Origin: Caballeronia sp. TF1N1
GTDB lineage: Bacteria > Pseudomonadota > Gammaproteobacteria > Burkholderiales > Burkholderiaceae
DNA: 64,000 nt
Direction of reading: 5' to 3'
NCBI RefSeq assembly: GCF_022878925.1
Contig: NZ_CP084628.1
Coordinates: 930,001 to 994,000 of the forward strand
The notes beneath the pieces are model-generated. The model did not search any database and was not told where the DNA came from. It worked only from the letters and a program-made list of their open reading frames with translations. Each line of letters starts with the position of its first letter. Position 1 is the first letter of the stretch. The position numbers and the translations under genes were made by a program. Below are positions 31,426 to 49,745 of the stretch, one piece after another.

Positions 31426-31742
31426 ACGCACGTTTCGTGAGAGTGGCGGAGACGGGGCGCAAAACGGTGACCATCGTTATCGACGGCAGCATCGCACAGG
31501 CCAAGGAAGGCGACACGCTGATGGTCGCGCTGCTGACGGCGCAAGACACCTTGCGCGATTCCGAGTTCGGCGATGGCCGCCGCGCCGGTTTCTGCCTGAT
31601 GGGCGCGTGCCAGGATTGCTGGGTTTGGACCGCGAGCGGCGAACGCCTGCGCGCCTGCACGACGCCGGTTGAAGAAGGCATGTCGATCGTCACACGCATC
31701 GGTCAGACGAAGGAGGGTGTATGGCCGCGCGCGAGCGTTTGA
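31422..31742 (+). CDS. (2Fe-2S) ferredoxin-like small subunit, HcnA/OoxA-type
   Basis: 106-residue protein with plant-type ferredoxin cysteines Cys58, Cys63, Cys66 (C-x4-C-x2-C) and Cys79. It is the small iron-sulfur subunit of the heterotrimeric flavin dehydrogenases represented by HcnABC (glycine dehydrogenase forming cyanide), opine oxidases and hydroxyproline dehydrogenases. Electrons would pass from the FAD subunits through this cluster to the quinone pool. It starts inside an ATGA overlap with the ATPase gene and overlaps the next gene by 22 bases, so translation is tightly coupled. Confidence 0.85.
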   Translation: MNARFVRVAETGRKTVTIVIDGSIAQAKEGDTLMVALLTAQDTLRDSEFGDGRRAGFCLMGACQDCWVWTASGERLRACTTPVEEGMSIVTRIGQTKEGVWPRASV

Positions 31743-33139: not shown

Positions 33140-34305
33140 ACGAGCGCGCCGATGTGATCGTGATCGGCGGCGGTATCGTCGGCACGACGACCGCATTCTT
33201 TTTGCGCCGCCGTAAGCGTTCCGTGATCGTGCTCGAACGCGGTCTCACCGGGCAGCAGGCAAGCGGCGTGAACTTCGGCGGCGTGCGTCGCCAGGGCCGC
33301 GCGCTTTCGCAACTGGCCATGTCCAATCGCGCCTTGCAGACCTGGAAACGCTCGCGGGAACTGCTCGGCGAAGATGTCGAATTCCTGCCTTCGGGCCATA
33401 CGCGCGTCTGCTATCACGCGCATGACGCCGAGTATTTTCAGCGCTATGCCGATGAAGCGCGCGCCCACGGCCTCGATCTCGAAGTGCTAGAAGGCCGGGC
33501 GATGTTCGAGCGCTTCCCCTTCCTCGGCCGCGAAGTCCTTGCCGCATCCGTTTCGCCGCTCGATGGCCACGCCAATCCGCGACTCGCCGCGCCTGCGTTC
33601 GGGCGTGCGGCGGCGCGGCTTGGAGCGCGCATCGTCGAGAACACGGAAGTGGTGCGTATCGAGAAAGAAGCGGGCGGCTTTCGCGTGGAAAGCGCGGCGG
33701 GCGACATCTATCGCGCCGAACAAGTGCTGGTATGCGCGGGCGCGTGGGCCAATACCTTGTCGACGCAACTCGGCGAGCCTGTGCCGCTCGTCGCGCGCGG
33801 CCCGCAAATGGCCGTGACCGAACCCGTGCCGTATGTCTTCCAGCATTCGATGGGCGTCTACACGACAGTCAAGGCCGAGAGCGTGTACTTCCGCCAGATT
33901 CCGCGCGGCAATCTCGTGCTCGGCGGCGGCCCGCCCGGTCCCGCCGATATCGCCACGCGCCGCGCGGGCGTGCTGCCGGAAAACACCGTCGCGCAGATGG
34001 CGCAGTTTCGCCGCATGGTGCCGGCGCTCGGACCCTTGCATGTGATACGCGTCTGGAGCGGCGTCGAAAGCTATCTGCCGGATTCGGAACCGGTGATCGG
34101 CCCGAGCACGAAAGCCGATGGCCTCTTCTATGCGTTCGGTTTCAGCGGCTCGGGGTTTCAGATCGGGCCGGGCGTGGGCGAAACGCTCGCGGAACTGCTC
34201 GATACCGGCGCCACACCCATTCCTCTCGATTCGTTCTCCATTCAACGATTCCAGCGCGGCGCATCGGCACACGCGGAATCGGCCACGTCAGAGACTTCTT
34301 CATGA
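33136..34305 (+). CDS. FAD-dependent catalytic subunit, HcnC/OoxB-type
   Basis: 389-residue DAO-family flavoprotein with V-I-G-G-G-I-V-G at 9-16. It also has the G-V-N-F-G-G-V-R-R-Q-G-R segment near 45-56 and a C-terminal G-F-S-G-S-G-F-Q-I-G-P motif. It should be the substrate-oxidising beta subunit of the three-part complex with the two genes before it, acting on a secondary amine or D-amino acid. Start at 33136 overlaps the previous stop by four bases; the end overlaps the AraC-type gene by four. Cyanide formation is not claimed: the enzyme neighbours point to catabolism. Confidence 0.86.
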   Translation: MNERADVIVIGGGIVGTTTAFFLRRRKRSVIVLERGLTGQQASGVNFGGVRRQGRALSQLAMSNRALQTWKRSRELLGEDVEFLPSGHTRVCYHAHDAEYFQRYADEARAHGLDLEVLEGRAMFERFPFLGREVLAASVSPLDGHANPRLAAPAFGRAAARLGARIVENTEVVRIEKEAGGFRVESAAGDIYRAEQVLVCAGAWANTLSTQLGEPVPLVARGPQMAVTEPVPYVFQHSMGVYTTVKAESVYFRQIPRGNLVLGGGPPGPADIATRRAGVLPENTVAQMAQFRRMVPALGPLHVIRVWSGVESYLPDSEPVIGPSTKADGLFYAFGFSGSGFQIGPGVGETLAELLDTGATPIPLDSFSIQRFQRGASAHAESATSETSS

Positions 34306-34760
34306 ACCACGAGAGCCACGCGAACATCAAGCCCGCCGTGCTCGGCAACGCGCTCGACTATATCGAAGCGAATTTCGACAAGACCGTGAGTCTTGCGCAG
34401 CTCGCCGATGTCTCGGCGTTGTCGGTGTCGCGCTTTGCGACCGTGTTTCGCGAGCAGATCGGGCTTTCGCCCTACAAGTATCTGTGCCGCGTGCGGGTGC
34501 GGCGTGCGCAGAGTCTGTTGCTCGCGGGCATGCCGGGATCGGTGGTGGCGACGGAAGTCGGCTTTTTCGATCAAAGCCATCTCGCGCGGCATTTCAAGCG
34601 CTTGTGCGGCATGACGCCGAGTACGTTCATCGAGCACGCACGCGAGCACGCACGCGACCATGCGGACACGCGTTCAGCCAAGCTCGATGCCGGTTGCCTT
34701 AAGGGCGTCGCGAAGACCCAGCCGCGGATACTTGCTCTCGACGACGCGCATGTCGCCTAG
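34302..34760 (+). CDS. AraC-family helix-turn-helix regulator (DNA-binding domain only)
   Basis: 152-residue protein with the double helix-turn-helix of AraC/XylS proteins: V-S-L-A-Q-L-A-D-V-S-A-L-S-V-S-R-F near 30-46 and G-S-V-V-A-T-E-V-G-F-F-D-Q-S-H-L near 79-94, then the F-K-R-L-C-G-M-T-P-S end motif. No ligand-sensing domain is present, so it resembles the small SoxS/MarA-type or HTH-only regulators. It is the last gene of cluster A and coupled to it by a 4-base overlap. Its last 29 codons overlap the tail of the convergent LysR gene by 87 bases, and the conserved domain ends near residue 112, so the tail may be non-essential. Confidence 0.83.
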   Translation: MNHESHANIKPAVLGNALDYIEANFDKTVSLAQLADVSALSVSRFATVFREQIGLSPYKYLCRVRVRRAQSLLLAGMPGSVVATEVGFFDQSHLARHFKRLCGMTPSTFIEHAREHARDHADTRSAKLDAGCLKGVAKTQPRILALDDAHVA

Positions 34761-35645
34761 CGTCTCCGCGATGAGCCAGTCGCGCACGTCGGCGACGATA
34801 GGCCGCAACGGCCGGTTCGGCGGCGTGACGAGGCAGCAGCGCCGGCTCGTCACGATGAGTTCCAGTTCCGCCGGCACGAGCGCGCCTTGCGCGAGCCAGT
34901 GAGACGCCACGTTGAGCCAGCCGAGCGCCATGCCTTGCCCGAGCAACGCGGCCTGCACGACGATGGCGTAGTCGTTGAAACTGAGCATGCCGGCGACATG
35001 CCGCTCTTGGTCGGCGAACGCATGAAAGCGCTCATGCCAGCCGCGTTCGCCGTCGTCCATGACGATCACCGTATCGCCATGCGCGCGGCCCGCTTCGGTA
35101 CACGCGGTTTCGTGGTATCGCTCGTTCGATACCGGCAGCAGCGCTTCGGGCATGACCAGCACGGCGTTCTCGTCGATCTCTTCATCGTGAAGGAAGCGCA
35201 TGCCGAGATCGACATCGACGAGCGGCCCGCCAATGCGCCCCGAGATCAGTTGAAAACGCAGGTCCACCGAAGGAAACGCCTGATTGAGCCGGCTCATGCG
35301 CGGCATCAGCCAGTGCGTGGTGAAGGCGGTGGAAACCGACAGCGTGACCGACTCCACGCCGGTGGCGCGTGCCTCGATTTCGCGGATGGCGCTTTCTATG
35401 CCATTGAAGCCTTCCGATATCTTGCGATACAGAATGCGCCCGCTTTCCGTCAGTTCGATGCCGCCGCGCACGCGCTCGAAAAGCCGCACGCCGATATGGT
35501 CTTCCATGCGCGCGAGCATGCGGCTGACCGCCGGCTGACTCACGTAAAGTTCTTGCGCGGCACGCGTGAAATTACCGCAGCGCGCGGCCGCTTCGAAGAC
35601 GAAGAGCGCGTTGGCGCTGGGCAGTTTCTTGCGAAGGTTGGGCAT
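34674..35645 (-). CDS. LysR-type regulator, GcvA-like, divergent from cluster B
   Basis: 323-residue LTTR. The N-terminal winged helix (about 6-65) contains F-E-A-A-A-R-C-G-N-F-T-R-A-A-Q-E-L and S-Q-P-A-V-S-R. The effector domain (about 95-300) is of the GcvA/choline-sulfate-utilisation type, opening with V-T-L-S-V-S-T-A-F-T-T-H-W-L. Such regulators control glycine, betaine and amine pathways. It is transcribed divergently from the polyamine-type ABC operon, and a dyad CAATT-N4-AATTG with the T-N11-A character of LysR sites lies between. The same box occurs before the binding-protein gene at 43906, so this LysR is the likely regulator of both. Confidence 0.9.
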   Translation of the reverse strand: MPNLRKKLPSANALFVFEAAARCGNFTRAAQELYVSQPAVSRMLARMEDHIGVRLFERVRGGIELTESGRILYRKISEGFNGIESAIREIEARATGVESVTLSVSTAFTTHWLMPRMSRLNQAFPSVDLRFQLISGRIGGPLVDVDLGMRFLHDEEIDENAVLVMPEALLPVSNERYHETACTEAGRAHGDTVIVMDDGERGWHERFHAFADQERHVAGMLSFNDYAIVVQAALLGQGMALGWLNVASHWLAQGALVPAELELIVTSRRCCLVTPPNRPLRPIVADVRDWLIAETLGDMRVVESKYPRLGLRDALKATGIELG

Positions 35646-35664
35646 GACCTGATGTTATGCCCGA

Positions 35665-35712
35665 TCCAACAATTTTGGAATTGCCGTCAAAAACATCGCG
35701 CCGTATATTTTT
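35665..35712 (+). promoter_or_regulatory. LysR-type box and promoter of cluster B
   Basis: TCCAACAATT at 35665-35674 continues into a dyad with CAA-N8-TTG half-sites and AATTGC. Thirty-nine bases after its first base comes TATATTTTT (35704-35712), a -10-like element 37 bases before the ATPase start. The identical 10-mer, the same CAA-N8-TTG spacing and the same 39-base distance to the same TATATTTTT occur on the minus strand at 45122-45075. Confidence 0.7.
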
Positions 35713-35748
35713 CTTAATCCTCAAGCCCGAAGACACGAGACGACACTC

Positions 35749-36825
35749 ATGGATGCACGAGCGAAAACCGGCGTATCGATCAGGTCGGCAACCAAGCGCT
35801 ACGGCGCGCTGGCCGCACTCGACGATGTTTCTCTCGACATCGCGCCGGGCGAATTCGTCTCGTTGCTCGGCCCGTCGGGTTCGGGCAAGACCACGCTACT
35901 AGGCATTCTCGGCGGCTTCGTGCAGCCAACGTCCGGAAGCGTCTGGGTCGGCGAGCGCGACATTACATTTGCGCCGCCGCACAAGCGCGATATCGGCATC
36001 GTGTTCCAGAACTACGCGCTCTTTCCGCATATGACGGTGGGCGAGAACGTCGCGTTCTCGCTGCGTGCGCGACGCGAGCCGAAATCCACCTGGCCGAAGA
36101 AGGTCGCCGATGCCCTGGCGATGGTCGAACTCGCGGGCTACGAGAATCGCGGCATCGACCAGTTGTCGGGCGGGCAGAAGCAACGCGTGGCGCTCGCCCG
36201 CGCGATGGTCTTCGAGCCGCAACTGATCCTGATGGACGAGCCGCTCTCCGCGCTCGACAAGCAATTGCGCGAGACCATGCAGATCGAGCTGCGGCGGCTG
36301 CATCGGCGGCTTGGCGCGACCATTGTCAACGTGACGCACGATCAGCGCGAGGCGCTCACCATGAGCGACCGCGTGGCCGTGCTCAAAGACGGCAAGCTCG
36401 TGCAGATCGACACGCCCGAGCGTCTCTACGACCGTCCTTGCGATGCGTTCGTCGCGAGCTTCATCGGCGAGGCGACCTTGCTCGACGTGAGCCGCGCGGG
36501 CGACGACACCGTGCGTCTCGGCAACACGGTCTTGCGCACGGCGCACCCGTTGCCACGCGGCGAGAAGCTCTTGCTCGCGGTGCAGACGGAGAAGCTTTTC
36601 ATCGCGCATGGCGACGCGCAAGCAAACGCCAACCGCTTTTCCTGTCGCGTGACCGAAGTGCTTTATCAGGGCGAAAGTCTGCGCGTGTTCGCGGTGCTCG
36701 CAGACGGCACGGCCATCAGCCTGAGACAGCCCGGCAGCTTCGAGGCGCGCCGCCGCATTCCCCAGCCGGGCGCCGAGATGATCGTGGCGCTCGATCCCGC
36801 GGACACCATCGTCGTGCCCGCATGA
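35749..36825 (+). CDS. ABC importer ATPase, polyamine/Fe3+ (PotA) type
   Basis: 358-residue ATPase. Walker A G-P-S-G-S-G-K-T-T at about 41-49, signature L-S-G-G-Q-K-Q-R-V near 142-150, Walker B L-I-L-M-D-E-P-L-S near 162-170, and the H-loop V-T-H-D-Q near 197. The last 90 residues form a TOBE regulatory domain. It energises the two permeases encoded at 38930-40632; the matching periplasmic binding protein is not in this operon but at 43906-44976 on the other strand. Two enzyme genes separate it from the permeases, an unusual gene order. It is the first gene behind the LysR-type promoter. Confidence 0.91.
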   Translation: MDARAKTGVSIRSATKRYGALAALDDVSLDIAPGEFVSLLGPSGSGKTTLLGILGGFVQPTSGSVWVGERDITFAPPHKRDIGIVFQNYALFPHMTVGENVAFSLRARREPKSTWPKKVADALAMVELAGYENRGIDQLSGGQKQRVALARAMVFEPQLILMDEPLSALDKQLRETMQIELRRLHRRLGATIVNVTHDQREALTMSDRVAVLKDGKLVQIDTPERLYDRPCDAFVASFIGEATLLDVSRAGDDTVRLGNTVLRTAHPLPRGEKLLLAVQTEKLFIAHGDAQANANRFSCRVTEVLYQGESLRVFAVLADGTAISLRQPGSFEARRRIPQPGAEMIVALDPADTIVVPA

Positions 36826-36906
36826 ACGGTTTTTCATCGCCTGTGCACGGGCGATTCGACTGGCACATGTTGCCAACTCATACGCAACCCGCAAAAGGAT
36901 GATGCA

Positions 36907-37620
36907 ATGAATCTCACCGATTTCAAGGTCCTGACGTTCGATGTCGTCGGCACGCTGATCAACTTCGAAAAAGGCGTGCTCGATTCCGTGCGGCGTCTGG
37001 GCGGCCCGAAGGCGAAGGACCTGACCGATGACCAGATCTTCACGCCGTACATGGATGGCCGCGCGAAGTATCCGGGGCGTTCGAGCCATGAGATGGCCAA
37101 CGTCTATCTGCATCTGGCGAAGGAACTCGGTTTGCCCGACGACGCGCAATCGGCTGCCGCGTTCCAGCGCGACGTGCTCGAATGGCCCGCCTTCGAAGAT
37201 TCGGTTGCCGCATTGAAGCGCCTGCGCAAGCACTTCCGGCTCGTCGCGATGACCAACGCGGACCGCGTCGCGCTGTCGGCGTATGCGCATACGCTCGGCA
37301 ATCCGTTCGACGATACCGTCTGCTGCGACGAAACCGGTGTCGCCAAGCCCGACCCGCAATTCTTCGCTTACAACCGTGGACGTCAGGCTGCGTTCGGCTA
37401 CAAGTTCGACGAGATTCTGCATACGGCGCAGAGCCAGTATCACGACATCGGCGTCGCGACGAAGCTCGGTTATGCGACGTGCTGGATCGAACGCCGTCAA
37501 GGTCAGAAAGGCTTCGGCGCCACGCCCGTGCCGGAGAACGTGACGACGCCGACGTTCAAGTTCGCGACCCTCGCCGCGCTCGCCGATGCGGTCGAGGCCG
37601 AACTGCGCGCCGCCGCCTGA
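36907..37620 (+). CDS. HAD superfamily protein, haloacid-dehalogenase type II-like (second copy)
   Basis: 237-residue HAD protein. Nucleophile Asp12 is in F-D-V-V-G-T-L, a departure from the D-x-Y-G-T of haloacid dehalogenases since Tyr is replaced by Val. Motif II is A-M-T-N-A-D near residues 113-118, motif III Lys is in V-A-K-P-D near 146-150, and motif IV is A-Q-S-Q-Y-H-D near 175-181. It parallels the HAD at 23940 in position (before a FAD oxidase) but is only distantly similar, so the two clusters were not made by a recent duplication. Its stop is two bases before the FAD-oxidase start. Halide removal is unlikely; the chemistry is unknown. Confidence 0.82.
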   Translation: MNLTDFKVLTFDVVGTLINFEKGVLDSVRRLGGPKAKDLTDDQIFTPYMDGRAKYPGRSSHEMANVYLHLAKELGLPDDAQSAAAFQRDVLEWPAFEDSVAALKRLRKHFRLVAMTNADRVALSAYAHTLGNPFDDTVCCDETGVAKPDPQFFAYNRGRQAAFGYKFDEILHTAQSQYHDIGVATKLGYATCWIERRQGQKGFGATPVPENVTTPTFKFATLAALADAVEAELRAAA

Positions 37621-37622
37621 TC

Positions 37623-38933
37623 ATGCGCGCCCCGACGACGCCGCGTCCCGTACCCGACTCGCTCTGGCGGGCGATGGCCGGCCCCGCTGCCGCCACGGCG
37701 CCCTTGGCTCGCGACCTCGATGTGGAAGTCGCGATCATCGGTGCGGGCTATTCGGGGCTGACGGCCGCCCATGCCTTGCAAAAGCGCGGCGTGGCGTGCG
37801 CCGTGCTCGATGCGAATCCGGTCGGATGGGGCGCAAGCGGTCGCAACGGCGGCGTGGTGTCGTCGAAATTCAGGCTGTCGTTTCCGTCGATTGCGAGCGC
37901 GCATGGCGTCGCTATGGCCAAGCGCATGCATCGGCTCGCGCACGAGGGCGTGCGCGCGGTGGAAGCGCTCATCGACGAATTCGGTTTGCAGGCCGCGCAA
38001 TTCGAGCACACGGGCAGTCTGCGTTGCGCTCATACCGAGCGCGCTTTCGCCTCGATACGGGCGGAAGCCGAGTGGGTTCGCACGACACTCGGCGACACGA
38101 CCATGAGCGTGCAGTCGCGCGCCGAAGTGGAACACGAGACGGGTTCGCGTGGTTTCGTGGGCGGCGTGTTGAGCGCGGACGCGGGCACCATCTTGCCGCT
38201 GGAATACGTGCGCGGGCTTGCCGACGGTCTGACTGCGCGCGGCGTGCCGATCTTCGAATCGACACCGGTGATCGACATGACGCGCGCGGACGATCGTCGC
38301 GTGATCTTGCGTGCCCCTGGCGGCACGGTGCGCGCGAAACAGGTGATCGTCGCAACCAACGCTTATTCGAATCTTTCCGATGCCACTGCCGCCTATCATC
38401 GCGAACTCGTGCCGTTTCGCAGCGCGATGATCGCGACCGCGAAGCTTCCCGCCGACCTCGACGCGCAGATGATGATCAATCGCCGCAGCTACGCCGAAAC
38501 GCGCCGCATGATGAAGTGGTTTCGCAAGGTGGATGGCCGCATGCTCTTCGGCGGACGCGATGCCTTCGGCAAGGAAGGCGAGCCAACCGGCTTCGATGCG
38601 TTGCAACGCGCGATGATCGCGCTGTTCCCGCAACTCAACGGCGTGCCGGTCGCGTACCGCTGGTCGGGCTATGTCGGCATGACCTTCAACGCGCTGCCGC
38701 ATGTCGGCCGTAGCGACGACGCCACCACGTTCTGCCTCGGCTACAACGGCGCGGGGATTTCCATGGCGAGCCTCGTCGGGCAACATGCAGCGGCGCTCGC
38801 CCTCGGCGACAAGCCCGATCTCGCGCTGCTCGCGCAAGACGGCTTGCGGCCGGTGCCTTTTCATGCGCTGCGCGCGCCGGGCGTGAGGCTCGTCGCCGCG
38901 TGGTATCAGTTTCTCGACGCCGTGGGTGCATGA
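37623..38933 (+). CDS. FAD-dependent amine oxidoreductase (DAO family), cluster B
   Basis: 436-residue flavoprotein with I-I-G-A-G-Y-S-G at 38-45 and G-W-G-A-S-G-R-N-G-G near 66-75, the PuuB/OrdL-like signature. The C-terminal part has G-Y-N-G-A-G-I-S-M near residue 375. It should oxidise an imported amine. It is coupled to the HAD gene before it (two-base gap) and to the permease after it (the stop overlaps ATGs at 38930 and 38933). The shared F-R-S-A-M-I-A-T region suggests a substrate pocket like gamma-glutamylamine oxidases, but the natural substrate is not shown. Confidence 0.87.
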   Translation: MRAPTTPRPVPDSLWRAMAGPAAATAPLARDLDVEVAIIGAGYSGLTAAHALQKRGVACAVLDANPVGWGASGRNGGVVSSKFRLSFPSIASAHGVAMAKRMHRLAHEGVRAVEALIDEFGLQAAQFEHTGSLRCAHTERAFASIRAEAEWVRTTLGDTTMSVQSRAEVEHETGSRGFVGGVLSADAGTILPLEYVRGLADGLTARGVPIFESTPVIDMTRADDRRVILRAPGGTVRAKQVIVATNAYSNLSDATAAYHRELVPFRSAMIATAKLPADLDAQMMINRRSYAETRRMMKWFRKVDGRMLFGGRDAFGKEGEPTGFDALQRAMIALFPQLNGVPVAYRWSGYVGMTFNALPHVGRSDDATTFCLGYNGAGISMASLVGQHAAALALGDKPDLALLAQDGLRPVPFHALRAPGVRLVAAWYQFLDAVGA

Positions 38934-39841
38934 TGACGATAGCCAAACGGATACTAGAGGATGCAACGCCGATGCATGCCGCCGCAACCGACCCCTCGGT
39001 GCGCCATCAAAGACGCGAAGACCGCGCCATGCTGCTGCTCATGGCGCCCGCGTTGTTCGTGGTGATCGTGCTGCTGGTGGTGCCGCTCGCGTGGCTGTCG
39101 TGGCAGTCCATTTATCACGAAGGCGCGTTCACGCTCGTGAACTATCGGCGCGTTTTCACGGGCGCTTATCTCGACACCTTTCTGCTGACGTTCAAGCTGT
39201 CCATTATCGTGACGGGCGTGACGCTTTTGCTGGGATATCCGGTCGCATATTTCGCGGCATCGGTTTCGCCGCGATGGAGCGCGTTGATACTCGGCATGGT
39301 CATTCTGCCGTTCTGGACCAGCGTGCTCGTGCGCACTTACGCATGGCTCGTGCTGTTGCAGCGCACGGGCCTCATCAACAAGGCGCTGCTCGGCATGGGG
39401 CTGATCGAGCGGCCCTTGCAGCTTTCGTATAACCAGTTCGGCACGATCATCGCGATGGTGCATATCCTCTTGCCTTTCATGGTGCTGCCGCTCTATTCGG
39501 CGATGCAGAAGATTCCGCCGAACCTGTCGCAAGCGGGCGCGAGTCTCGGCGGTTCGCCCTTGCATGTGTTCATGCGCGTGTTCTTGCCGCTCTCGATGGG
39601 CGGCGTCGTCGCGGGCGTGACACTCGTCTTCGTGTTGTGCCTGGGCTTCTACATCACGCCGGAACTCATGGGCGGCGGCAAGTCGATGATGGTCTCCATG
39701 ATCGTCAGCCGTAATGTGGAGATCTACAACAGTTGGGGCGCGGCGAGTTCGGTGAGCGTGGTGCTGCTGCTGTGTGTCTTTGCGATCTTCTGGCTCGCGA
39801 GCCGCGTCATTCCGCTCGAAAAAACGCTGGGGGCGAAATGA
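38930..39841 (+). CDS. ABC importer permease, PotB type
   Basis: About 303-residue inner-membrane permease with six helices (first near 35-57). It has the BPD_transp_1 domain with a coupling loop A-G-A-S-L-G-G-S-P-L-H-V-F near 203-215. ATGs at 38930 and 38933 overlap the FAD-oxidase stop; a further in-frame ATG at 38972 is possible, giving a more usual short leader. The end overlaps the PotC-type gene by four bases. It should work with the ATPase at 35749 and the binding protein at 43906. Confidence 0.9.
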   Translation: MMTIAKRILEDATPMHAAATDPSVRHQRREDRAMLLLMAPALFVVIVLLVVPLAWLSWQSIYHEGAFTLVNYRRVFTGAYLDTFLLTFKLSIIVTGVTLLLGYPVAYFAASVSPRWSALILGMVILPFWTSVLVRTYAWLVLLQRTGLINKALLGMGLIERPLQLSYNQFGTIIAMVHILLPFMVLPLYSAMQKIPPNLSQAGASLGGSPLHVFMRVFLPLSMGGVVAGVTLVFVLCLGFYITPELMGGGKSMMVSMIVSRNVEIYNSWGAASSVSVVLLLCVFAIFWLASRVIPLEKTLGAK

Positions 39842-40632
39842 AGAGACTGTCGCTCGGCCGGATCATACTCGGCGCATCGGTGCTGCTGATCCTCGTGTTC
39901 CTGATGGTGCCGGTGGTGATCGTCGTGCCGCTGTCGTTTTCGGATGCGCGCTTTCTGACCTTTCCGCCGCCCGCGTATTCGTTGCGCTGGTATCACGCGT
40001 TCTTCGACAACCCCGCGTGGATCGACGCAGCCAAGACGACCTTCGCCGCATCGACATGCGCGTCATTGATAGCGACGCCGCTCGGTATTGCGGCGGCTTA
40101 TGGCATTCAGTACGGCTCGCACTGGTCGATGCGCTATCTGCGCACGCTCCTCATGTTGCCGATGATGGTACCGATCATCATCGTCGCGGTGGGCGTGTTC
40201 TTCGTGTTCACGCAAGCGGGATACGTGAATACGCTGGGCGGGCTCATCATCGCGGACACCATGCTGGGTCTGCCTTATGTGCTCATCTCGGTCGGCGCGG
40301 ATCTGCGCAGCTTCGACCGCACGCAGGAAATGGTCGCGCGCAGTCTCGGCATGAACCGCTTTCGCAGTTTCATGGCGGTGACGCTGCCGCAGATTCGCGC
40401 GAGCGTGATCTCGGGCGCGGTGTTCGTCTTCATTCAGGCGCTCGATGAAACCGTCGTCGCGCTGTTCATTTCGGGCGGCAGCAACCAGACGCTCACGCGT
40501 CGCATGTTCGTCACCTTGCGCGACGAGATCGATCCGACCATCGCGGCCATCAGCACCATGCTCACGGCGATTACGTTGTGCCTCGTGATGATCGTGGTCG
40601 TGAGCCGGCGCTCGGCGGTGGCGCGCACTTAA
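39838..40632 (+). CDS. ABC importer permease, PotC type
   Basis: 264-residue permease. First helix is about 9-31, and the coupling loop A-R-S-L-G-M-N-R-F-R-S-F near 165-176 contacts the ATPase. It pairs with the PotB-type subunit by an ATGA overlap. It ends 23 bases before the aldehyde dehydrogenase gene, so that gene is in the same operon. Confidence 0.91.
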   Translation: MKRLSLGRIILGASVLLILVFLMVPVVIVVPLSFSDARFLTFPPPAYSLRWYHAFFDNPAWIDAAKTTFAASTCASLIATPLGIAAAYGIQYGSHWSMRYLRTLLMLPMMVPIIIVAVGVFFVFTQAGYVNTLGGLIIADTMLGLPYVLISVGADLRSFDRTQEMVARSLGMNRFRSFMAVTLPQIRASVISGAVFVFIQALDETVVALFISGGSNQTLTRRMFVTLRDEIDPTIAAISTMLTAITLCLVMIVVVSRRSAVART

Positions 40633-40655
40633 CGCTTATAGAAACGGATCAACGC

Positions 40656-42083
40656 ATGTCACACTCATTGCAGTTCTACATCGATGGCGCGTGGGTCGAA
40701 CCGGCCGGCACGCGACGTCTGCCCGTGATCGATCCCTGCACGGAAGAAGCGTTTGCAGAGATCGCACTCGGCGATGCGCGCGATGTCGATCGCGCGGTTG
40801 CAGCCGCGCGGCGTGCATTCGAAACGTACTCGCGGACATCGGTGCCAGAGCGCGTCGCGTTGCTCGAACGCATACTCGAAGCGTACCTTGCGCGTTACGA
40901 CGAGATGGCCGAAGTCATCACGCGTGAAATCGGCGCGCCTTCCAAGTTATCGCATGCGTGGCAGGCGTCGCTCGGCAAGCGGCATATCGAAGAGACCTTG
41001 CGCACGGTCGCGCGCTTTCAGTGGCAACGCAGGAAGGGCACGACGCTCATCAACCACGAACCGGTCGGCGTCGCTGCGCTCATCACGCCGTGGAACTGGC
41101 CGATCAACCAGATCGTCTGCAAGGTCGCGCCCGCGCTCGCTGCGGGTTGCACGGTGGTGCTCAAGCCAAGCGAAGTATCGCCGCTGAATGCGCTCTTGTT
41201 TGCCGAGATTCTCGATGCAGCAGGCGTGCCGCCGGGCGTGTTCAATCTCATCAATGGCGACGGTCCGACCGTGGGCGCGGCGCTGTCTTCGCATCCGGAT
41301 GTGGACATGGTGTCGTTCACTGGCTCGACGCGCGCGGGAGTCGAGATTGCGAAGCTGGCCGCGCCGACCGTGAAGCGCGTGCATCAGGAGCTGGGCGGCA
41401 AGTCGGCGAACATCCTGCTTGACGATGTCGATCTGGAAGCGGCCGTGACGGCGGGCGTGAACTCGTGCTTCGGCAATAGCGGTCAGTCGTGCAATGCGCC
41501 CACGCGCATGCTCGTGCCTGCATCGCGTCATGCAGAGGCCGTGGAGATCGCGCGGCGTGCGGCTTCGAAGCAGCGCGTCGGCCCCGCCGATGCGGACGGC
41601 ACGACGATGGGCCCGGTCGTCAGCGACGTGCAGTTCACGCGCGTGCAGCGGTTGATTGGCATCGGCATCGAAGAAGGCGCCGAGTTGGTGGCGGGCGGTT
41701 TGGGGCGTCCGGACGGGTTGGAACGTGGTTACTACGTGAAGCCGACGGTGTTCGCTGGTGTCGATCCGTCGATGACAATTGCGCGCGAGGAAATCTTCGG
41801 GCCGGTGCTTGCGATCATGCCGTATCGCGATGACGAAGAAGCAATTGCGATTGCCAACGATACGCCGTTCGGGCTTGCGGCTTACGTGCAGTCTGGGGAT
41901 AAGGAGCGGGCGCGGAAGGTGGCGCTACGCATGCGCGCGGGTAGCGTTTATGTGAACTATCCGGCATGGGATGCGGGGTCGCCATTTGGCGGATATAAGC
42001 AGTCGGGGAATGGGCGCGAGTATGGGGAGTGGGGGTTGGAGGCGTTTTTGGAGGTCAAGGGGATCGTGGGGTTTGGGGAGTAG
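40656..42083 (+). CDS. NAD(P)-dependent aldehyde dehydrogenase, cluster B
   Basis: 475-residue ALDH with catalytic Cys279 in G-Q-S-C-N-A-P and the base Glu in H-Q-E-L-G-G-K-S. N-termini of this type (F-Y-I-D-G-A-W-V-E-P) are found in the betaine-aldehyde / aminobutyraldehyde group. It closes cluster B and should oxidise the aldehyde produced by the FAD amine oxidase or the GMC dehydrogenase. It converges with the GMC gene across 56 bases. The last 150 bases are unusually rich in G with fewer C than the neighbourhood. Confidence 0.88.
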   Translation: MSHSLQFYIDGAWVEPAGTRRLPVIDPCTEEAFAEIALGDARDVDRAVAAARRAFETYSRTSVPERVALLERILEAYLARYDEMAEVITREIGAPSKLSHAWQASLGKRHIEETLRTVARFQWQRRKGTTLINHEPVGVAALITPWNWPINQIVCKVAPALAAGCTVVLKPSEVSPLNALLFAEILDAAGVPPGVFNLINGDGPTVGAALSSHPDVDMVSFTGSTRAGVEIAKLAAPTVKRVHQELGGKSANILLDDVDLEAAVTAGVNSCFGNSGQSCNAPTRMLVPASRHAEAVEIARRAASKQRVGPADADGTTMGPVVSDVQFTRVQRLIGIGIEEGAELVAGGLGRPDGLERGYYVKPTVFAGVDPSMTIAREEIFGPVLAIMPYRDDEEAIAIANDTPFGLAAYVQSGDKERARKVALRMRAGSVYVNYPAWDAGSPFGGYKQSGNGREYGEWGLEAFLEVKGIVGFGE

Positions 42084-42139
42084 TCAAGCGCACGCGCCTC
42101 GATTCTTAGCGCGCGTGACGCGAACGCCAATCTCACGCC

Positions 42140-43882
42140 CTACGATATCCGCTTCGACCCATACCCATCCACCACCCCGACCTCGCTCGCAAAGCGATTG
42201 GCGCTCGACTCCGCCCGCAGCATATCCGCCACGCGCTCGGCCATCATGATCGTCGGCACATTTGTATTGGCACAGGGTATCGAAGGCATCAGCGAGGCGT
42301 CGCATACATAAAGACCATCAACGCCATACACCGCGCCGCGCGCGTCAGTCACGGCGAGCGGATCGTTTTCAGCGCCCATGCGGCATGTGCCCGACGGATG
42401 CCACGTTCCGCCAACCGATCGTGTCACGAACCGCGTGAGCGCTTCGTCATCGTTCATCAAGTCGGCGATGCTCACGCCCTGCGTCACCACGCGTCGGATC
42501 AGCCATCCACGCAACGGTCCGGCAACATCCAGCAGCGCACTCAACGCGCCGCGCTGCAACGCGTTCCACATTCCCGGCACGGCGACCGCTGCGACGCGCG
42601 GCGAATAGCTCGACGGAAACACGATGTCGCGATGCGCATCCATCGACGCCGCGTTAAGTGTTTGCGCGCCGAAGCGCAAGGCAAGCTTGAGCCGTTCGAG
42701 GTCGCGTGTATCGGAAAGCATGGCGAAATCGACCTTCGGTTCATCGAGTGGATTCGCCGATGCCAACGTCACCCGCCCGCGCGAATACGACTTGTTGACC
42801 CAAAAGAAGATCGTGCCGAGCCGATAACCCACCGAATGCCAGCCGGAACGCGAAAGAATCGCGCCGTGCATGTCGCCGGGCACGGTGTCATCGAGATGTG
42901 ATGAGAAGCGCACGATCGCCTGCTCGTGATGCTCATCGGGATAAGGCGTGCGCGCCGAACGCGGCAAAAACGCGGACACCGCAATCGACGGATGCTCCAT
43001 CAGATTGCCGCCCACGCCCGGCCGGTCCGCGCATACTTCGATGCCGAGCGCAGCCAACGCTTGCGCCGGCCCGATGCCGCTGCGCATGAGCAACGCAGGA
43101 CTGTGTATCGCACCCGCCGAGACGATCACGCGCCGCGCGTGCACATCTTCGTGGGTGCCATCCGGCCGCAGGATGCGCGCACCGATCGCGCGTTTGCCAT
43201 CGAACAAAATGCGATCGACGACGAGACCCGTGCGGATCGATAGATTCACGCGCTTGCGAGTGGCATCGTCGAGATAACAGATGGACGTCGGAATACGTTC
43301 GCCCGCCGCGCTCACCGAGAGCGAGCCGATAAACGCGCCGTCTTGCCAGGGCCCGTTCTGATCGTCATGTAATGGATGGCCGCTCTTGCTAAGCGTATCC
43401 AGCACGGCGCGCACGAACGGCGAGATGCGCGCCCACTTCGGACGCTGAATGCGCAGCGGTCCGTCCGAGCCGTGATAGGGGCCGGCGAAGTCGCAATCGG
43501 CTTCGAGCTTGCGGAAGTAGGGCAGGCAGCTCTGCCAGTTCCAGCCATCGGCCCCGAGCGTGTCCCACTCGTCGTAATCGGCGGGCGCGCCGCGATTGGC
43601 CATCAGCGCGTTGATCGCGGAACCGCCGCCGAGAATGCGCGCTTGCTCATAACGTCGAACGGGCGCGAGCGCGCTCATGCGGGCCTTCAACTGCCGCCAG
43701 ATGTTGTTCGTATCGAGATAAGCGCGCCCCGGATAGCGGCTGCGAACCGCGTCCGGCATGGTGCTCGCGGAGATGTCGCGGCCCGCCTCGACGAGGCATA
43801 TGTGCTTGCCTGCATCCTCCGACAGGCGCGCGGCCAGCACGCAGCCCGCCGAGCCGCCGCCGAGAATCAGATAATCGATCAT
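42140..43882 (-). CDS. GMC-family FAD alcohol dehydrogenase (choline-dehydrogenase-like)
   Basis: 580-residue GMC oxidoreductase. The FAD motif L-G-G-G-S-A-G is at 7-13, GMC signature 1 is G-G-G-S-A-I-N-A-L-M near 85-94, and the catalytic H-P-S-G-T-C-R-M lies near residue 495, followed by a second His/Asn region (N-T-N-V-P-T). It oxidises a primary alcohol to the aldehyde with electrons going to the respiratory chain, as BetA does for choline. It follows the binding-protein gene by 23 bases and so is under the same LysR-type promoter. Start at 43882 gives the natural family N-terminus. A much longer open frame continues upstream inside the binding-protein gene and is not real. Confidence 0.89.
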   Translation of the reverse strand: MIDYLILGGGSAGCVLAARLSEDAGKHICLVEAGRDISASTMPDAVRSRYPGRAYLDTNNIWRQLKARMSALAPVRRYEQARILGGGSAINALMANRGAPADYDEWDTLGADGWNWQSCLPYFRKLEADCDFAGPYHGSDGPLRIQRPKWARISPFVRAVLDTLSKSGHPLHDDQNGPWQDGAFIGSLSVSAAGERIPTSICYLDDATRKRVNLSIRTGLVVDRILFDGKRAIGARILRPDGTHEDVHARRVIVSAGAIHSPALLMRSGIGPAQALAALGIEVCADRPGVGGNLMEHPSIAVSAFLPRSARTPYPDEHHEQAIVRFSSHLDDTVPGDMHGAILSRSGWHSVGYRLGTIFFWVNKSYSRGRVTLASANPLDEPKVDFAMLSDTRDLERLKLALRFGAQTLNAASMDAHRDIVFPSSYSPRVAAVAVPGMWNALQRGALSALLDVAGPLRGWLIRRVVTQGVSIADLMNDDEALTRFVTRSVGGTWHPSGTCRMGAENDPLAVTDARGAVYGVDGLYVCDASLMPSIPCANTNVPTIMMAERVADMLRAESSANRFASEVGVVDGYGSKRIS

Positions 43883-43905
43883 GCCGAAACGCGCGCGCTG
43901 CACGC

Positions 43906-44976
43906 TCACTGCATGAACTTGAGCCACCGCGCCTTGGCCTGAATGCCCGGGTCCGATGCCCACCATTCTTCCTGCATCAGCGCTTGTTTCGCGGCATTGG
44001 CGGGTGAACTCGGCAGCTCGGACGCGCGCTTCTCGCTGATCTTGCCGGTCTTGAACGCGGCCGGATTGCCCGGACCGTAATCGATATACGTCGGCAGGTT
44101 CGCCTGCAATTCCGGCGAAAGCGCGGTATTGAGGAAGCGCACCGCATCGTTGAGGTTCGGCGCGTTCTTCAGGATGCACAACTGCGTGTTCTGCAGGATG
44201 CCGTCGTTGAAAGTGAAGTCCACGTCCGGATCGTCCTTGCGCACGGCGCTCGCGCGGCCGTTCCAGATCATCGTCATGTCGACTTCGCCGTCGTGCAGCA
44301 ACTGCGCCGACTGGCCGCCCGAGGTCCACCATACCGTGATGTTCGGCTTGATCTCTTCGAGCTTCCTGAACGCGCGATCGACATCGAGCGGATAGAGCTT
44401 GTCGCGCGCCACGCCGTCCGCGAGCAAGGCGGCTTCGAGCACGGTCTGCGGGTCGTTGCGCAAGGCGCGCGTGCCGGGGAAACCTTTCACGTCCCAGAAG
44501 TCCTTCCAGCTTTGCGGCACCTTCTTGAGCGTTTTCTTGTTGTAGCCGATGACGGTCGAATAAAACTCGTACGCCGCCGAATAGGGCGTGCGGTATTGCT
44601 CGGGCATCGCGGCCGCGTTGGGGATCTTCGAGAAGTCGAGCTTTTCCAGCAAGCCTTCGCGCCCGCCGCGCAGACAGTTCGACGTTGGGGTATCGATCAC
44701 GTCCCAGATCGGCTTGCCGGTAGCGGCTTGCGCTTTGACTTGCGGCCATGCATCCGGAATGCTGTCCTGCTTGATCGTGATGCCGAGTTCTTTTGCAGCG
44801 GGATCGAGAATCGCCTTGGTCTGCGCTTCCTGATAAGCGCCGCCTTGCGACACGAAAGTGATGCTGCCCGCGGCAAAAGCCGGTGCCGCGCCGCCCAGGG
44901 CCATGCCAAGCGCGAAAGTCATGGCAAGCGGGCGAAGCGTGAGACGGGAACAACTGAACCTTGCAATATTGATCAC
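43906..44976 (-). CDS. Periplasmic binding protein, spermidine/putrescine (PotD/PotF) type
   Basis: 356-residue extracytoplasmic solute-binding protein. It starts at a GTG (44976) five bases after GAGGAA, and has a Sec-type signal peptide (about 1-35) cleaved near A-F-A-A-G. The mature part begins S-I-T-F-V-S-Q-G-G-A-Y and has the polyamine-type hinge region and a W-W-T-S-G-G-Q-S-A-Q-L segment. It is an orphan: no permease or ATPase is next to it. The matching importer parts lie at 35749 and 38930-40632, and the shared promoter box shows they belong together. It is cotranscribed with the GMC dehydrogenase. Confidence 0.9.
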   Translation of the reverse strand: MINIARFSCSRLTLRPLAMTFALGMALGGAAPAFAAGSITFVSQGGAYQEAQTKAILDPAAKELGITIKQDSIPDAWPQVKAQAATGKPIWDVIDTPTSNCLRGGREGLLEKLDFSKIPNAAAMPEQYRTPYSAAYEFYSTVIGYNKKTLKKVPQSWKDFWDVKGFPGTRALRNDPQTVLEAALLADGVARDKLYPLDVDRAFRKLEEIKPNITVWWTSGGQSAQLLHDGEVDMTMIWNGRASAVRKDDPDVDFTFNDGILQNTQLCILKNAPNLNDAVRFLNTALSPELQANLPTYIDYGPGNPAAFKTGKISEKRASELPSSPANAAKQALMQEEWWASDPGIQAKARWLKFMQ

Positions 44977-45074
44977 GGCGTTTCCTCGACAAGGTTGAAG
45001 CGAAGGACGTCTTGCAGGTCGCGCCGTCACTGCGGATGAGCATGTCATCGCGCAAGAACGACGCGGGTCTGAGC

Positions 45075-45122
45075 AAAAATATATTGGGTCAAATTCGCTG
45101 GAGCAACGCCGCAATTGTTGGA
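45075..45122 (-). promoter_or_regulatory. LysR-type box and promoter of the binding-protein/GMC operon
   Basis: On the minus strand TCCAACAATT (45122-45113) is followed by GCGGCGTTGC and, 39 bases from its first base, by TATATTTTT (45083-45075). Compared with the cluster B promoter at 35665, 16 of the first 20 bases and all nine bases of the -10-like element agree, with identical spacing. It lies about 100 bases before the GTG start at 44976. Confidence 0.7.
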
Positions 45123-45165
45123 GGCTCCATGACCCTAGGTTATGCCCTGCAATTCAAGAAACGCT

Positions 45166-45513
45166 TCACTGGAAAATCACGTAGACCTTGCGCATGGTCT
45201 CCTCGACTTCCCATGTTCCTTCGGTGTTCGCCGCGAAAAACAGCGTGTCGCCGCCCGTGAAGTGCACGGTGTCTTCGCCATCGGGCGTGAAGCGTCCGCT
45301 TCCGGCAAGAAAGTGCATGACTTCCGCTTCCTTGACCGAGCGACGATACGTGCCCGGCGTGCATTCGAACACGCCGGTGTCGATGTTCTCGCTGCCCGGA
45401 ATCACGCGCTGTACGCCCGAAACCCTGATTTGCGGTGTGCCCGGAAGGCCTGCCGTGCCCCAGTCTTCCAGGCCTTGTAGCCCGATGCTCTGCTTGATCT
45501 GCTGAACTTTCAT
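45166..45513 (-). CDS. Small cupin protein (DUF861-like)
   Basis: 115-residue single-domain cupin. The barrel core includes R-S-V-K-E-A-E-V-M-H-F-L-A-G-S-G near 58-73 and a second strand pair with G-G-D-T-L-F-F near 87-93. Only some of the usual metal ligands (Glu and His) are visible, as in the EutQ/DUF861 group. These small cupins often accompany amine, glycine and ureide catabolism, as isomerases or binding proteins. It lies 25 bases after the deacylase gene and is the last gene before the LysR-type promoter of the binding-protein operon. Function not deducible. Confidence 0.75.
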   Translation of the reverse strand: MKVQQIKQSIGLQGLEDWGTAGLPGTPQIRVSGVQRVIPGSENIDTGVFECTPGTYRRSVKEAEVMHFLAGSGRFTPDGEDTVHFTGGDTLFFAANTEGTWEVEETMRKVYVIFQ

Positions 45514-45538
45514 ATGGTCGTGTCTTGTCGATCGAGTG

Positions 45539-46516
45539 TTATTGCGATGCAGCGATACGCTGTTCTATCTTCCCAAGCCTCACCACCGTCACGCCCGCGC
45601 GCAATTGGCGCAGCGAAGGCATGACGAGCATGCAATCGGCATAGGGCGTGCGGACCGCTTCGCCTTCGGACCAACCGATCACGCTACCGGCTTCCGGAAA
45701 GACTTCGAGGCCGGTGTAGGCATCGGCGAAACGGAAGTCGAGGCTCTTTGCCACGACCGGTTCCGTTACGCGCACGATCAGCATTTCCGGCGGTGACGGC
45801 TTGATCCATCCAATGGGGAGATCGGCCTCATCGAGCACGTCGGCAAGGCGGAGAAAGCGCGCCGTGACGTCGCGTGCCACGTCCACCGCGCTTGCTTCCC
45901 AATGCTGTCCGCATTCGATCAGAAGCGCGTTCTTCTCGCTGGCCGGATCGCCAAAGCCTTTGTAATCGCGCATGCGGCGGCCTTCCGGATGGCCTTCGTC
46001 GCAGATCACGGTCGCGGGCGTGCCGAGTTGCGCCGACAGCGCAATGCCTTTATCGAGCGGTCCCGCGACGATCAGCGGCGCGCTCTTCTCGTGCATCGAA
46101 TGCAGGTCGAGCAGCAGATCCACCGTGTCGATGACCGGACGCATCGCGCGGGCGCGGCGCAGTTCGCTCGAATCGCGCGAGGTGTCGTCGAGCGTCTGCG
46201 CGGTCCACACGCGGTTGAAGTCCTGATCGACGAAGCGCGAGGCATCCGGCTTCGCGGCATCGAAGCGTCGATAGGCATCGACATTCGCAAACGCGAGCGT
46301 GAGCTTGCCGCGCCGCGGGCGCACTTTCGCGCGCAGGAGTTCATCGACTGCAATCGCGCCGCACACTTCGTTGCCGTGCGTGAGCGCGTTGATCATCACG
46401 TGAGGACCGGCCACGCCCGAATCGAAGGTATGCACATAAGGGATGCCGGTGTTGCCGGCCTCATGCGCGCCGATGTCCGGAAACGTGACCTGAATGGGAT
46501 AAGCCGTCGCGTTCAT
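45539..46516 (-). CDS. Zinc deacylase of the AspA/AstE (M14-like) family
   Basis: 325-residue metallo-amidohydrolase. Zinc ligands are His47 and Glu50 (T-H-G-N-E) and His139 (D-L-H-S-M-H); a substrate Arg lies in D-F-N-R-V-W near 99-104, and the catalytic Glu in L-L-I-E-C-G-Q near 208-214. The family removes N-acetyl or N-succinyl groups from amino acids (aspartoacylase, AstE, and DoeB/EutE in ectoine breakdown). Its start overlaps the semialdehyde dehydrogenase stop by four bases. An N-acyl amino compound as pathway intermediate is a reasonable inference; which one is not shown. Confidence 0.85.
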   Translation of the reverse strand: MNATAYPIQVTFPDIGAHEAGNTGIPYVHTFDSGVAGPHVMINALTHGNEVCGAIAVDELLRAKVRPRRGKLTLAFANVDAYRRFDAAKPDASRFVDQDFNRVWTAQTLDDTSRDSSELRRARAMRPVIDTVDLLLDLHSMHEKSAPLIVAGPLDKGIALSAQLGTPATVICDEGHPEGRRMRDYKGFGDPASEKNALLIECGQHWEASAVDVARDVTARFLRLADVLDEADLPIGWIKPSPPEMLIVRVTEPVVAKSLDFRFADAYTGLEVFPEAGSVIGWSEGEAVRTPYADCMLVMPSLRQLRAGVTVVRLGKIEQRIAASQ

Positions 46517-47979
46517 TCGAGACCGCCCTGACAGAGATATTTGATCGACAGATAGTCGTCCAGGCCGTACTTCGAGCCTTCGCGGCCGTAGCCCGATTCC
46601 TTCACGCCGCCGAAAGGCGCGGCTTCGCTCGCGAGCGCGCCTTCGTTGATGCCGACGATGCCCGCTTCGAGCGCACGCGCCACGCGGTCGATGCGCTTCA
46701 CGTCCTGGCTGTAGAAGTACGATGCGAGGCCGAAGGGCGTGTCGTTGGCGGCGCGAATGCCCTCGGCTTCGTCGTCGAAACGAAAGAGCGGCACGACAGG
46801 ACCGAAGGTTTCCTCGCAGCTCAGTTGCATGTCGGGCGTGGCATCGGCGAGCACGGTCGGCGCGTAGTAGTTCGCCCCGAGTTCCGTGAGCCGCTTGCCG
46901 CCCGCGAGCACGCGTGCGCCGCGCGCGACGGCGTCATCGACATGGCGGGCGATCTTGTCGACCGCGCGCGAGTTGATCATCGGGCCGATCTGCGCTTTCG
47001 GGTCGGTCGCGGGCGCAACCTTCAATGCAGCGACGCGGTTACTGAGCAAGTCCGCGAAGCGCTCGTACACGCCGGACTGCACGAACACGCGATTCGGGCA
47101 CACGCAGGTCTGTCCGCCGTTGCGGAATTTCGAGGCCATCAGGCCGGTCACCGCCGCGTCGAGATCGGCGTCATCGAACACGATGAAAGGCGCATTGCCG
47201 CCGAGTTCGAGCGAGAGCTTTTTCAGCGTATCCGCCGACTCGCGCGCGAGATACTTGCCGACAGGAGTCGAACCCGTGAAGGTGATTTTGCGTACGCGGC
47301 TGTCCTGAAGCCAGTCGGCGACCGCGGGCACCGCGCTCTCCCGCGACGAACTGATGAGATTCAACGCGCCCGCCGGCACGCCCGCCTCGTGCGCGAGCAT
47401 GACGAGCGCAAGCGCGGTCAGCGGCGTGTCTTCGGCTGGCTTACCGACGACCGTGCAGCCCGCCGCGAGCGCGGGCGCGATCTTGCGCGCAATCATCGCG
47501 AGCGGAAAGTTCCACGGCGTGATGGCCGCGACGATTCCCACCGGTTCTTTCACCGCGCTCATGCGCTTGCCGCGCTGCTGTTGCGGAATGATGTCGCCGT
47601 AAATGCGCGTAGCTTCGTCGGCAAACCACGCCACATAAGACGCGCCGTACAGCACTTCGCCGCGACCTTCGGCAAGCGGCTTGCCTTGTTCGAGCGAGAT
47701 GAGTTCGCCGAGCGCGTCGGCATTCTCGACGATCAGCGTGTGCCAGCGGTGCAGCACCGCCGCGCGATCCTTCGGCAGCGTGTCACGCCAAGCGGGAAAC
47801 GCGCGCGCGGCGGCATCGGTGGCGGCGCGGGCATCGGCGGCGCCGCTGTCGGCTACTTCGACGATGACTTCGCCCGTCGCCGGGTTCGTCACGGCAAAGC
47901 GCTTGCCGTCGGCGGCCGCCACCCATTTGCCATCGATGAAATTATCGGCGCGGATCAGATCGCTCAATGTATGGCTCAT
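46513..47979 (-). CDS. gabD: NAD(P)-dependent succinate-semialdehyde-type dehydrogenase
   Basis: 488-residue ALDH of the GabD group. E-L-G-G-N-A-P-F-I-V holds the general base and G-G-Q-T-C-V-C-P-N-R the catalytic Cys; the second Cys two residues on is typical of GabD. The N-terminus (F-I-D-G-K-W-V-A) is normal. It oxidises a short carboxy-aldehyde; both succinate semialdehyde and aspartate semialdehyde (DoeC-like) are possible given the aminotransferase upstream. It overlaps the deacylase gene by four bases and follows the tartrate-dehydrogenase-like gene by 10 bases. Confidence 0.85.
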   Translation of the reverse strand: MSHTLSDLIRADNFIDGKWVAAADGKRFAVTNPATGEVIVEVADSGAADARAATDAAARAFPAWRDTLPKDRAAVLHRWHTLIVENADALGELISLEQGKPLAEGRGEVLYGASYVAWFADEATRIYGDIIPQQQRGKRMSAVKEPVGIVAAITPWNFPLAMIARKIAPALAAGCTVVGKPAEDTPLTALALVMLAHEAGVPAGALNLISSSRESAVPAVADWLQDSRVRKITFTGSTPVGKYLARESADTLKKLSLELGGNAPFIVFDDADLDAAVTGLMASKFRNGGQTCVCPNRVFVQSGVYERFADLLSNRVAALKVAPATDPKAQIGPMINSRAVDKIARHVDDAVARGARVLAGGKRLTELGANYYAPTVLADATPDMQLSCEETFGPVVPLFRFDDEAEGIRAANDTPFGLASYFYSQDVKRIDRVARALEAGIVGINEGALASEAAPFGGVKESGYGREGSKYGLDDYLSIKYLCQGGLE

Positions 47980-47989
47980 GGCAGCTCCT

Positions 47990-49069: not shown

Positions 49070-49175
49070 GAGGATCTCCGCTTTCGTTTAGTCAGGAACC
49101 ACGCGCGCGAGGGTCGTGCGCCGACCCGCCCGCGGCGCGAGCGTTCGAAGCTTCAATACAGGAAACAAGGATAAC

Positions 49176-49195
49176 AACGCGCGTGAATGCGCGTT
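49176..49195 (-). terminator. Weak hairpin after the Lrp gene
   Basis: AACGCGC and GCGCGTT form a 7-base stem around a 6-base loop, seven bases after the Lrp stop; downstream on the minus strand follows GTTATCCTTGTTT. It probably separates the Lrp transcript from ttuC only partly. Confidence 0.35.
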
Positions 49196-49202
49196 GCGGT
49201 GG

Positions 49203-49700: not shown

Positions 49701-49745
49701 CGTGGGAGGCGGGGCGGGACATGTCGGAGAAGTCGGTCGATGTTA

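Follow-up and report, generated by a model that had tools for sequence, protein, structure and literature searches.

Most LysR-type regulators contact two sites, the primary one at -65 and another near -35, and the inducer shifts the contacts of the tetramer to bring about activation; contacts at the second site are made with non-conserved sequence (PMC4834489, in the part of that account consulted). Here we describe two control modules of this general type in a 64,000-nucleotide stretch of the genome of the soil bacterium Caballeronia sp. TF1N1 (hereafter the window; C3:930001-994000 of the 7.07 Mb genome). One module stands before an operon that begins with the ATPase gene of a PotABCD-type importer, and next to a divergent LysR gene. 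The other stands before a binding-protein gene and a GMC oxidoreductase gene. The likeness of the two promoters had been noticed in a first-pass annotation of the window; it is confirmed here, and it is better supported than when first stated. It is highly probable that the importer, an FAD oxidase, an HAD hydrolase, an aldehyde dehydrogenase and the GMC oxidoreductase form one catabolic unit, that its core was formerly a single LysR-divergent operon, and that the two present convergent operons each carry a copy of the control module, activated together by the neighbouring LysR.

The locus resembles typical LysR systems, as the consulted part of PMC4834489 describes them, in that a T-N11-A palindrome at about -65 overlaps the divergent regulator gene and a second site lies by the -35. 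It differs from them, within the same part of that source, in that the second site is about as conserved as the first and in that two targets are found 9.4 kb apart in convergent operons. With helix-turn-helix and effector domains in the protein (Pfam PF00126 and PF03466, both above cut-off), the palindrome near -65, its overlap with the divergent regulator gene and the second site by the -35, the locus has, as judged from sequence, the features of a LysR-type regulon. A local LysR regulon with two targets is a known kind of regulation, and this one is a good example of operon fission. The regulator is closest to the branch of GcvA and the choline-sulfate regulator, which give the best NCBIfam matches (TIGR03418, 198 bits; NF008352, 182 bits), and its nearest solved structure by sequence is GcvA 8y6u. 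Both scores, however, lie below the curated cut-offs (324.8 and 288, respectively), and the protein at 182 bits does not qualify as a GcvA ortholog.

The importer has the ATPase, the two permeases and the binding protein of the right families for a PotABCD polyamine importer. Unlike in those systems, the binding-protein gene is in a separate, convergent operon, and the binding protein scores higher against unnamed chains and chains named for opines, gamma-aminobutyrate (GABA) or polyamines than against the spermidine/putrescine-binding chains 1pot and 1poy. A close counterpart is an unsplit locus of Alphaproteobacteria and Salinicola, in which LysR adjoins genes for, in this order, ATPase, HAD protein, oxidase, binding protein, two permeases and, in some cases, the GMC protein. 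It shares its genes with the locus of the window and has a similar operator at LysR, whereas its binding-protein gene is inside the operon and it has one operator. Among the matches listed in the open-access literature, we found no account of this gene set or of promoter copying in a split operon.

The order of elements is common to both promoters and in one register: the palindrome (CATNAC-N5-GTNATG), a box over a weak -35, and TATATT. The module is 67 bases long, and palindrome, 5-base gap, second site and -10 align without an insertion or deletion; the modules with their spacing, conservation and exclusivity, as well as the unsplit operon of other groups, are established directly from the sequences. 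Counted from the predicted start, about 7 bases past the -10, the centre of the palindrome is near -65 in both modules. At site 1, before the ATPase gene, the palindrome overlaps the LysR start codon, which is contained in CATGAC. The boxes begin at 35665 on the + strand and at 45122 on the - strand, with TCCAACAATT in common, 16 of the first 20 bases identical, TTGC in both, and TATATTTTT at 39 bases, just as first reported. The first-pass annotation missed the upstream half of the operator (35640-35662; 45144-45128). The fixed distance of 39 bases is explained by sigma-70 geometry (TTGCCG or TTGCTC, 17 bases, TATATT), and the TTG half-site and the -10 are therefore partly a constraint of the promoter.

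Over a 48-base stretch, 30 of the 48 bases are common to sites 1 and 2, and no other stretch of the window, on either strand, matches site 1 as well; the next best has 27. The identity between the two sites was averaged over 50 pairs, from 49 relatives and the window. For the palindrome it was 0.74, for the second site 0.77 and for the -10 0.86; by contrast, the 5-base gap reached 0.22, the spacer 0.36 and the flanks 0.25 and 0.28 (49 pairs). The parts that are alike are those that the regulator and the polymerase would touch.

Searched genome-wide for unrelated matches, the bipartite pattern CATNAC-N5-GTNATG-N6-CNAACAATT-N3-G-N2-TTG found sites 1 and 2 alone (up to three mismatches), and the reversed control found none. 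The exact simple pattern TCCAACAATTNNGGNNTTGC occurs twice in the whole genome. The only other match to it with up to two mismatches falls within an open frame of 194 codons, lacks TATATT at the proper distance, and was rejected as a further site. Sequence-only models were built for each site from 17 relatives (for site 2, 17 other species); their E-values are rough, as the tool itself states. The site-2 model, run genome-wide, recovered its own site (E 2e-16), then site 1 (E 5e-8) and, on the opposite strand, the palindrome of site 1 (E 0.2); it found no other place up to E 10.

Conservation was examined in named loci, the best 80 of 195 matched stretches, of which 52 are from Burkholderiaceae and 28 from elsewhere. 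The site-2 box precedes the binding-protein gene in all 52 Burkholderiaceae loci (up to three mismatches), and the site-1 box precedes the ATPase gene in each of the 49 loci that hold an ATPase ortholog; L049, L053 and L069 have none in the locus. LysR was matched in 48 of the 52. In one locus (L078) the two operons are in tandem instead of convergent, and both sites are kept. The laboratory strain Paraburkholderia xenovorans LB400 is among the holders of the locus (L065). The split arrangement is old and well kept.

The bipartite pattern was also searched in 58 genomes of the genus, the source genome included (up to three mismatches). Exactly two sites were found in 32 genomes, one in four (G016, G023, G028, G036) and more in none; the controls gave 0. 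All 30 genomes in which the binding protein was matched over its full length (at 79% identity or more) have exactly two sites, the match in G018 having an internal stop. Partial matches were found in G074, with two sites, and G036, with one. No binding protein, even partial, was found in 26 genomes, and 22 of these have no site, while G020 has two and G016, G023 and G028 one each. In G028 a LysR fragment adjoins the decayed site. G020 holds a relic of the gene cluster (L137, G020:C7, 2221-4664), in which the two operators persist at a distance of 1.4 kb, together with LysR, a shortened ATPase gene and the HAD gene, whereas the other cluster genes, including that of the binding protein, were unmatched in the 10 kb examined. 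Loss of most of the ATPase gene is thus accompanied by loss of the binding protein, which we count in favour of a single unit.

Among 299 genomes of the family, searched with up to two mismatches, 44 match; 37 have two sites, seven have one and none has more, again with 0 in the controls. Six of these were examined at the gene level (G096, G132, G278, G116, G279, G313). The first three hold the importer genes and the binding protein, each of the two with a site of its own; no aldehyde dehydrogenase was matched in any of the three, and no GMC protein in G132. In G116 the single site precedes a shortened binding-protein gene. In G279 and G313, which belong to another genus, the single site is flanked by a LysR relative (57-59%) and a FAD oxidase/HAD/cupin set.

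A larger regulon was considered and rejected, since no third bipartite site is found in the source genome (up to three mismatches) and no genome among the 58 or the 299 has more than two. One-mismatch matches to the simple pattern in two genomes of the genus (G009, in L019, and G017) were likewise rejected as extra sites, as the bipartite pattern is unmatched there. The genome uniqueness, the retention of both boxes in the Burkholderiaceae loci, the limit of two sites per genome and the single-operon form elsewhere all support the regulon of two operons that had been proposed from the window.

The single-operon form was found outside the family. The 28 non-Burkholderiaceae loci comprise five from Pseudomonas and 23 others (Alphaproteobacteria, Salinicola and one metagenome-assembled genome named only Proteobacteria). 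In all 23 of the latter, the gene order has the binding protein between the oxidase and the first permease. LysR and the operon are transcribed divergently in 22 of them and in the same direction in L099. With operator patterns relaxed for these groups after inspection of their operator alignment, 21 of the 23 show one operator at the LysR start, on the same two-part plan; that of L102 reads on both strands. The binding protein of the window, described at first as an orphan, is indeed separate from the importer operon, but it is not a true orphan; it is most likely a displaced member of the neighbouring importer's operon.

The five Pseudomonas loci are divided differently: the gene divergent from LysR is that of the aldehyde dehydrogenase, and the binding-protein/GMC pair stands apart. 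Three of these genomes, searched with the pattern, have two operators about 4.6 kb apart (0-1 mismatch), together with an extra three-mismatch match in G084 and one control match in G083. In one Pseudomonas region, importer genes about 11 kb away carry their own second binding protein (58%).

Trees were made from 36 of the 80 loci, with 35 usable rows in each and midpoint rooting. The split binding proteins form one clade (100/98; 37-row tree), whose neighbours are the in-operon binding proteins of Aureimonas (99/97), Tistlia and Salinicola. The LysR proteins of the split loci also form one clade (100/99; 36-row tree). A single split, with different arrangements arising later, would be the simplest account, and the direction from one operon to two is what we infer. 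The best reading is that the importer/oxidation operon split once and that its LysR-controlled promoter now exists in two copies.

For the second module, copying of the first seems the likelier origin. It is less probable that it was built independently, or taken from another LysR target, before the binding-protein gene. The two modules have no sequence in common outside the functional parts, as the identities of the gap and the flanks show, and this fits an independent origin. On the other hand, palindrome, gap, second site and -10 stay in one register without an indel over about 67 bases, and neutral flanks would be lost in an old duplication anyway; these points are not decisive. The first-pass annotation had regarded duplication as unlikely on the ground that the downstream genes are dissimilar. 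This argument is not borne out. Since the likeness is limited to the operator halves and the -10, the absence of wider similarity is no argument against an old duplication; the unlike flanks show only that any duplication is old, and duplication is the likelier origin. The chances seem to us about even that the LysR module, with its palindrome, sequence-conserved activation site, promoter and fixed register, is a portable unit that was copied once, in an ancestor from which the Pseudomonas and Burkholderiaceae forms descend, as the binding-protein/GMC pair left the operon, and that the copies have since been kept as the sole two sites of a two-target regulon, the importer subunits being co-made from two convergent transcripts. 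On the best reading, the locus is a clean natural instance of operon fission, with co-regulation retained through a second operator copy. The unsplit form, the alternative split of Pseudomonas and the decaying relics are all available for comparison.

In the mechanism that we propose, the neighbouring LysR most likely occupies both modules as a tetramer, through the palindrome at -65 and the site by the -35. Binding of a pathway metabolite by LysR would change these contacts, and both operons would be activated together. The membrane parts of the importer and the binding protein would be made in step, the two transcripts supplying one importer and the oxidising enzymes. At the first module, LysR would cover the region of its own start codon and would probably repress its own synthesis.

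Activation rather than repression is again something we infer. The second site overlaps the -35, as would be expected if LysR repressed both operons and were relieved by the metabolite. By our own count, however, the -35 hexamers are imperfect, with four of six bases of TTGACA at promoter 1 and three of six at promoter 2, and such hexamers suit an activator-dependent promoter. A palindrome near -65 is also the arrangement given for activators in the consulted part of PMC4834489. Repression of both operons is therefore unlikely.

The divergent LysR had been named as the regulator, and three facts argue for it. First, the palindrome overlaps the LysR start codon in Burkholderiaceae, Pseudomonas, Salinicola and most Alphaproteobacteria seen. 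Second, the operator remains at LysR where the divergent gene is that of the aldehyde dehydrogenase (Pseudomonas) or of an FAD oxidase (L143, L144) and not of the ATPase. Third, the recognition helix goes with the operator: SQPAV or TQPAV is found with the right arm TTAT of the LysR-start operator (57 of 75), and TPAAV, TPAAI or TPPAV with GTAAC/GTAAT (17 of 75). Helix type and arms thus agree in 74 of 75 cases, the exception being the Q-type L099, which has no operator. The Q-type helix and the Q-type arm also occur together in two Alphaproteobacteria, Tistlia (L100) and Inquilinus (L112), so that the agreement does not simply follow class. On these grounds, LysR most likely binds both modules.

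Binding of both modules by some other regulator, such as a paralog, is improbable. There are many LysR candidates per genome in first-look counts, and two genomes of the genus, G018 and G074, retain two sites without a detected LysR ortholog (threshold E 1e-120 or better, with up to 38 candidates scored per genome). These are, however, 3.9 Mb genomes in which the binding protein is interrupted by a stop or partial. A LysR ortholog was found in 30 of the 58 genomes, and all 30 carry two sites. The palindrome on the start codon of LysR itself, its persistence there despite changed divergent genes, and the agreement of helix and operator also speak against another regulator. Finally, that the two promoters share merely generic sigma-70 signals and chance, without a common regulator, is scarcely credible and already contradicted. 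TTG and TATATT do stand at normal -35/-10 spacing, but the palindrome and CAACAATT, which are kept nearly as well as the -10, are located upstream of the -35, and the sites are unique genome-wide and co-occur with the genes.

Besides the two genomes without a detected LysR ortholog, several observations weigh against a once-single operon with two LysR-controlled copies of its promoter. The likeness of the sites is asymmetric: the site-2 model finds site 1 strongly, whereas the site-1 model scores site 2 weakly in the window (E 0.012, second of 7) and genome-wide reported site 1 and not site 2 (150 of 2080 candidates scored). Outside Burkholderiaceae, the site-2 model gives five weak matches (E 0.011-0.034) in the 28 loci, and the likeness of operators between classes therefore rests on alignment and register. 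No operator was detectable with the patterns used in L099 and L105, in the latter of which the LysR match lacks its first 41 residues. The helix/operator classes were defined after the rows had been seen, a looser first sorting misplaced five P-type cases, and the classes are confounded by descent. The nesting of the split clade hinges on the midpoint root.

The features of the two modules and the genes that they would control are collected in Table 1.

Table 1. Control modules and genes of the two convergent operons (window positions).
Feature	Position	Strand	Basis or remark
Operator 1, upstream half (RBS-like)	35640..35662	+	GGGCAT-N11-ATGCCC; core CATGAC-N5-GTTATG 35643-35659; sequence and alignment of relatives
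Operator 1, downstream half (ABS-like), TCCAACAATTTTGGAATTGC	35665..35684	+	overlaps -35
Predicted sigma-70 promoter 1	35681..35709	+	TTGCCG - 17 - TATATT
Operator 2, upstream half	45128..45144	-	CATAAC-N5-GTCATG; genome pattern search and alignment
Operator 2, downstream half, TCCAACAATTGCGGCGTTGC	45103..45122	-	overlaps -35
Predicted sigma-70 promoter 2	45078..45106	-	TTGCTC - 17 - TATATT
LysR-type regulator, GcvA-like branch	34674..35645	-	Pfam HTH_1 and LysR_substrate; divergent from importer operon
PotA-type ABC ATPase	35749..36825	+	NCBIfam/Pfam profiles
HAD-family hydrolase (haloacid dehalogenase type II-like, below that cut-off)	36907..37620	+	profiles
FAD-dependent oxidoreductase, DAO family	37623..38933	+	Pfam, loci of relatives
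PotB-type permease, start codon uncertain	38909..39841	+	profiles
PotC-type permease	39838..40632	+	profiles
Aldehyde dehydrogenase	40656..42083	+	profiles
GMC-family oxidoreductase	42140..43882	-	profiles
Periplasmic binding protein, GTG start uncertain	43906..44976	-	Pfam SBP_bac_8

The full complement of a PotABCD-type importer is present (ATPase, two permeases and binding protein). Among the best 25 NCBIfam matches per protein, none reached the family cut-off for the ATPase, the permeases or the binding protein. The solved relatives of the binding protein carry molecule names that refer to opines, GABA or polyamines; for the nearest of them, 4I1D, the one paper listed in the open-access literature was unrelated. 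Since the oxidase is of the DAO type and the binding protein has relatives so named, the substrate is probably an amine or amino compound, as far as family names can tell. A binding protein that looked like an orphan is in this way given its importer, and a regulon of two sites is predicted.

Two related binding proteins are encoded in Pseudomonas sp. NFR16. One (L136, 8024-9106) is 58% identical to that of the window and belongs to an importer operon; the other (L081, 10043-11095; 79%) belongs to the LysR-linked binding-protein/GMC pair. The two may share one importer. A like operator was also seen in two loci of another genus of the family, g27 (L143, 5785-5825; L144, 6768-6808), where a LysR relative is divergent from a FAD oxidase/HAD/cupin set; the two genomes have a single site each with up to two mismatches.

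Next to site 2, a cluster on the - strand of the window (45166-51176) contains genes for a cupin, an aspartoacylase-like protein and a dehydrogenase like succinate-semialdehyde dehydrogenase (SSADH) and, by sequence reading, for an isocitrate/tartrate dehydrogenase-like protein, an Lrp regulator and an aminotransferase. We take this cluster to be reminiscent of ectoine degradation gene sets. Membership of the cupin, aspartoacylase and SSADH-like genes in the unit was considered and rejected, since only 16 of the 52 Burkholderiaceae loci, some of them truncated, have a match to the cupin, while both sites are kept. On the other side, the + strand at 29578-34305 reads as a double ABC ATPase gene followed by two FAD oxidoreductase genes, which presumably resemble opine oxidase sets. 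Homologs of these genes adjoin the related locus in some relatives (L037, L065).

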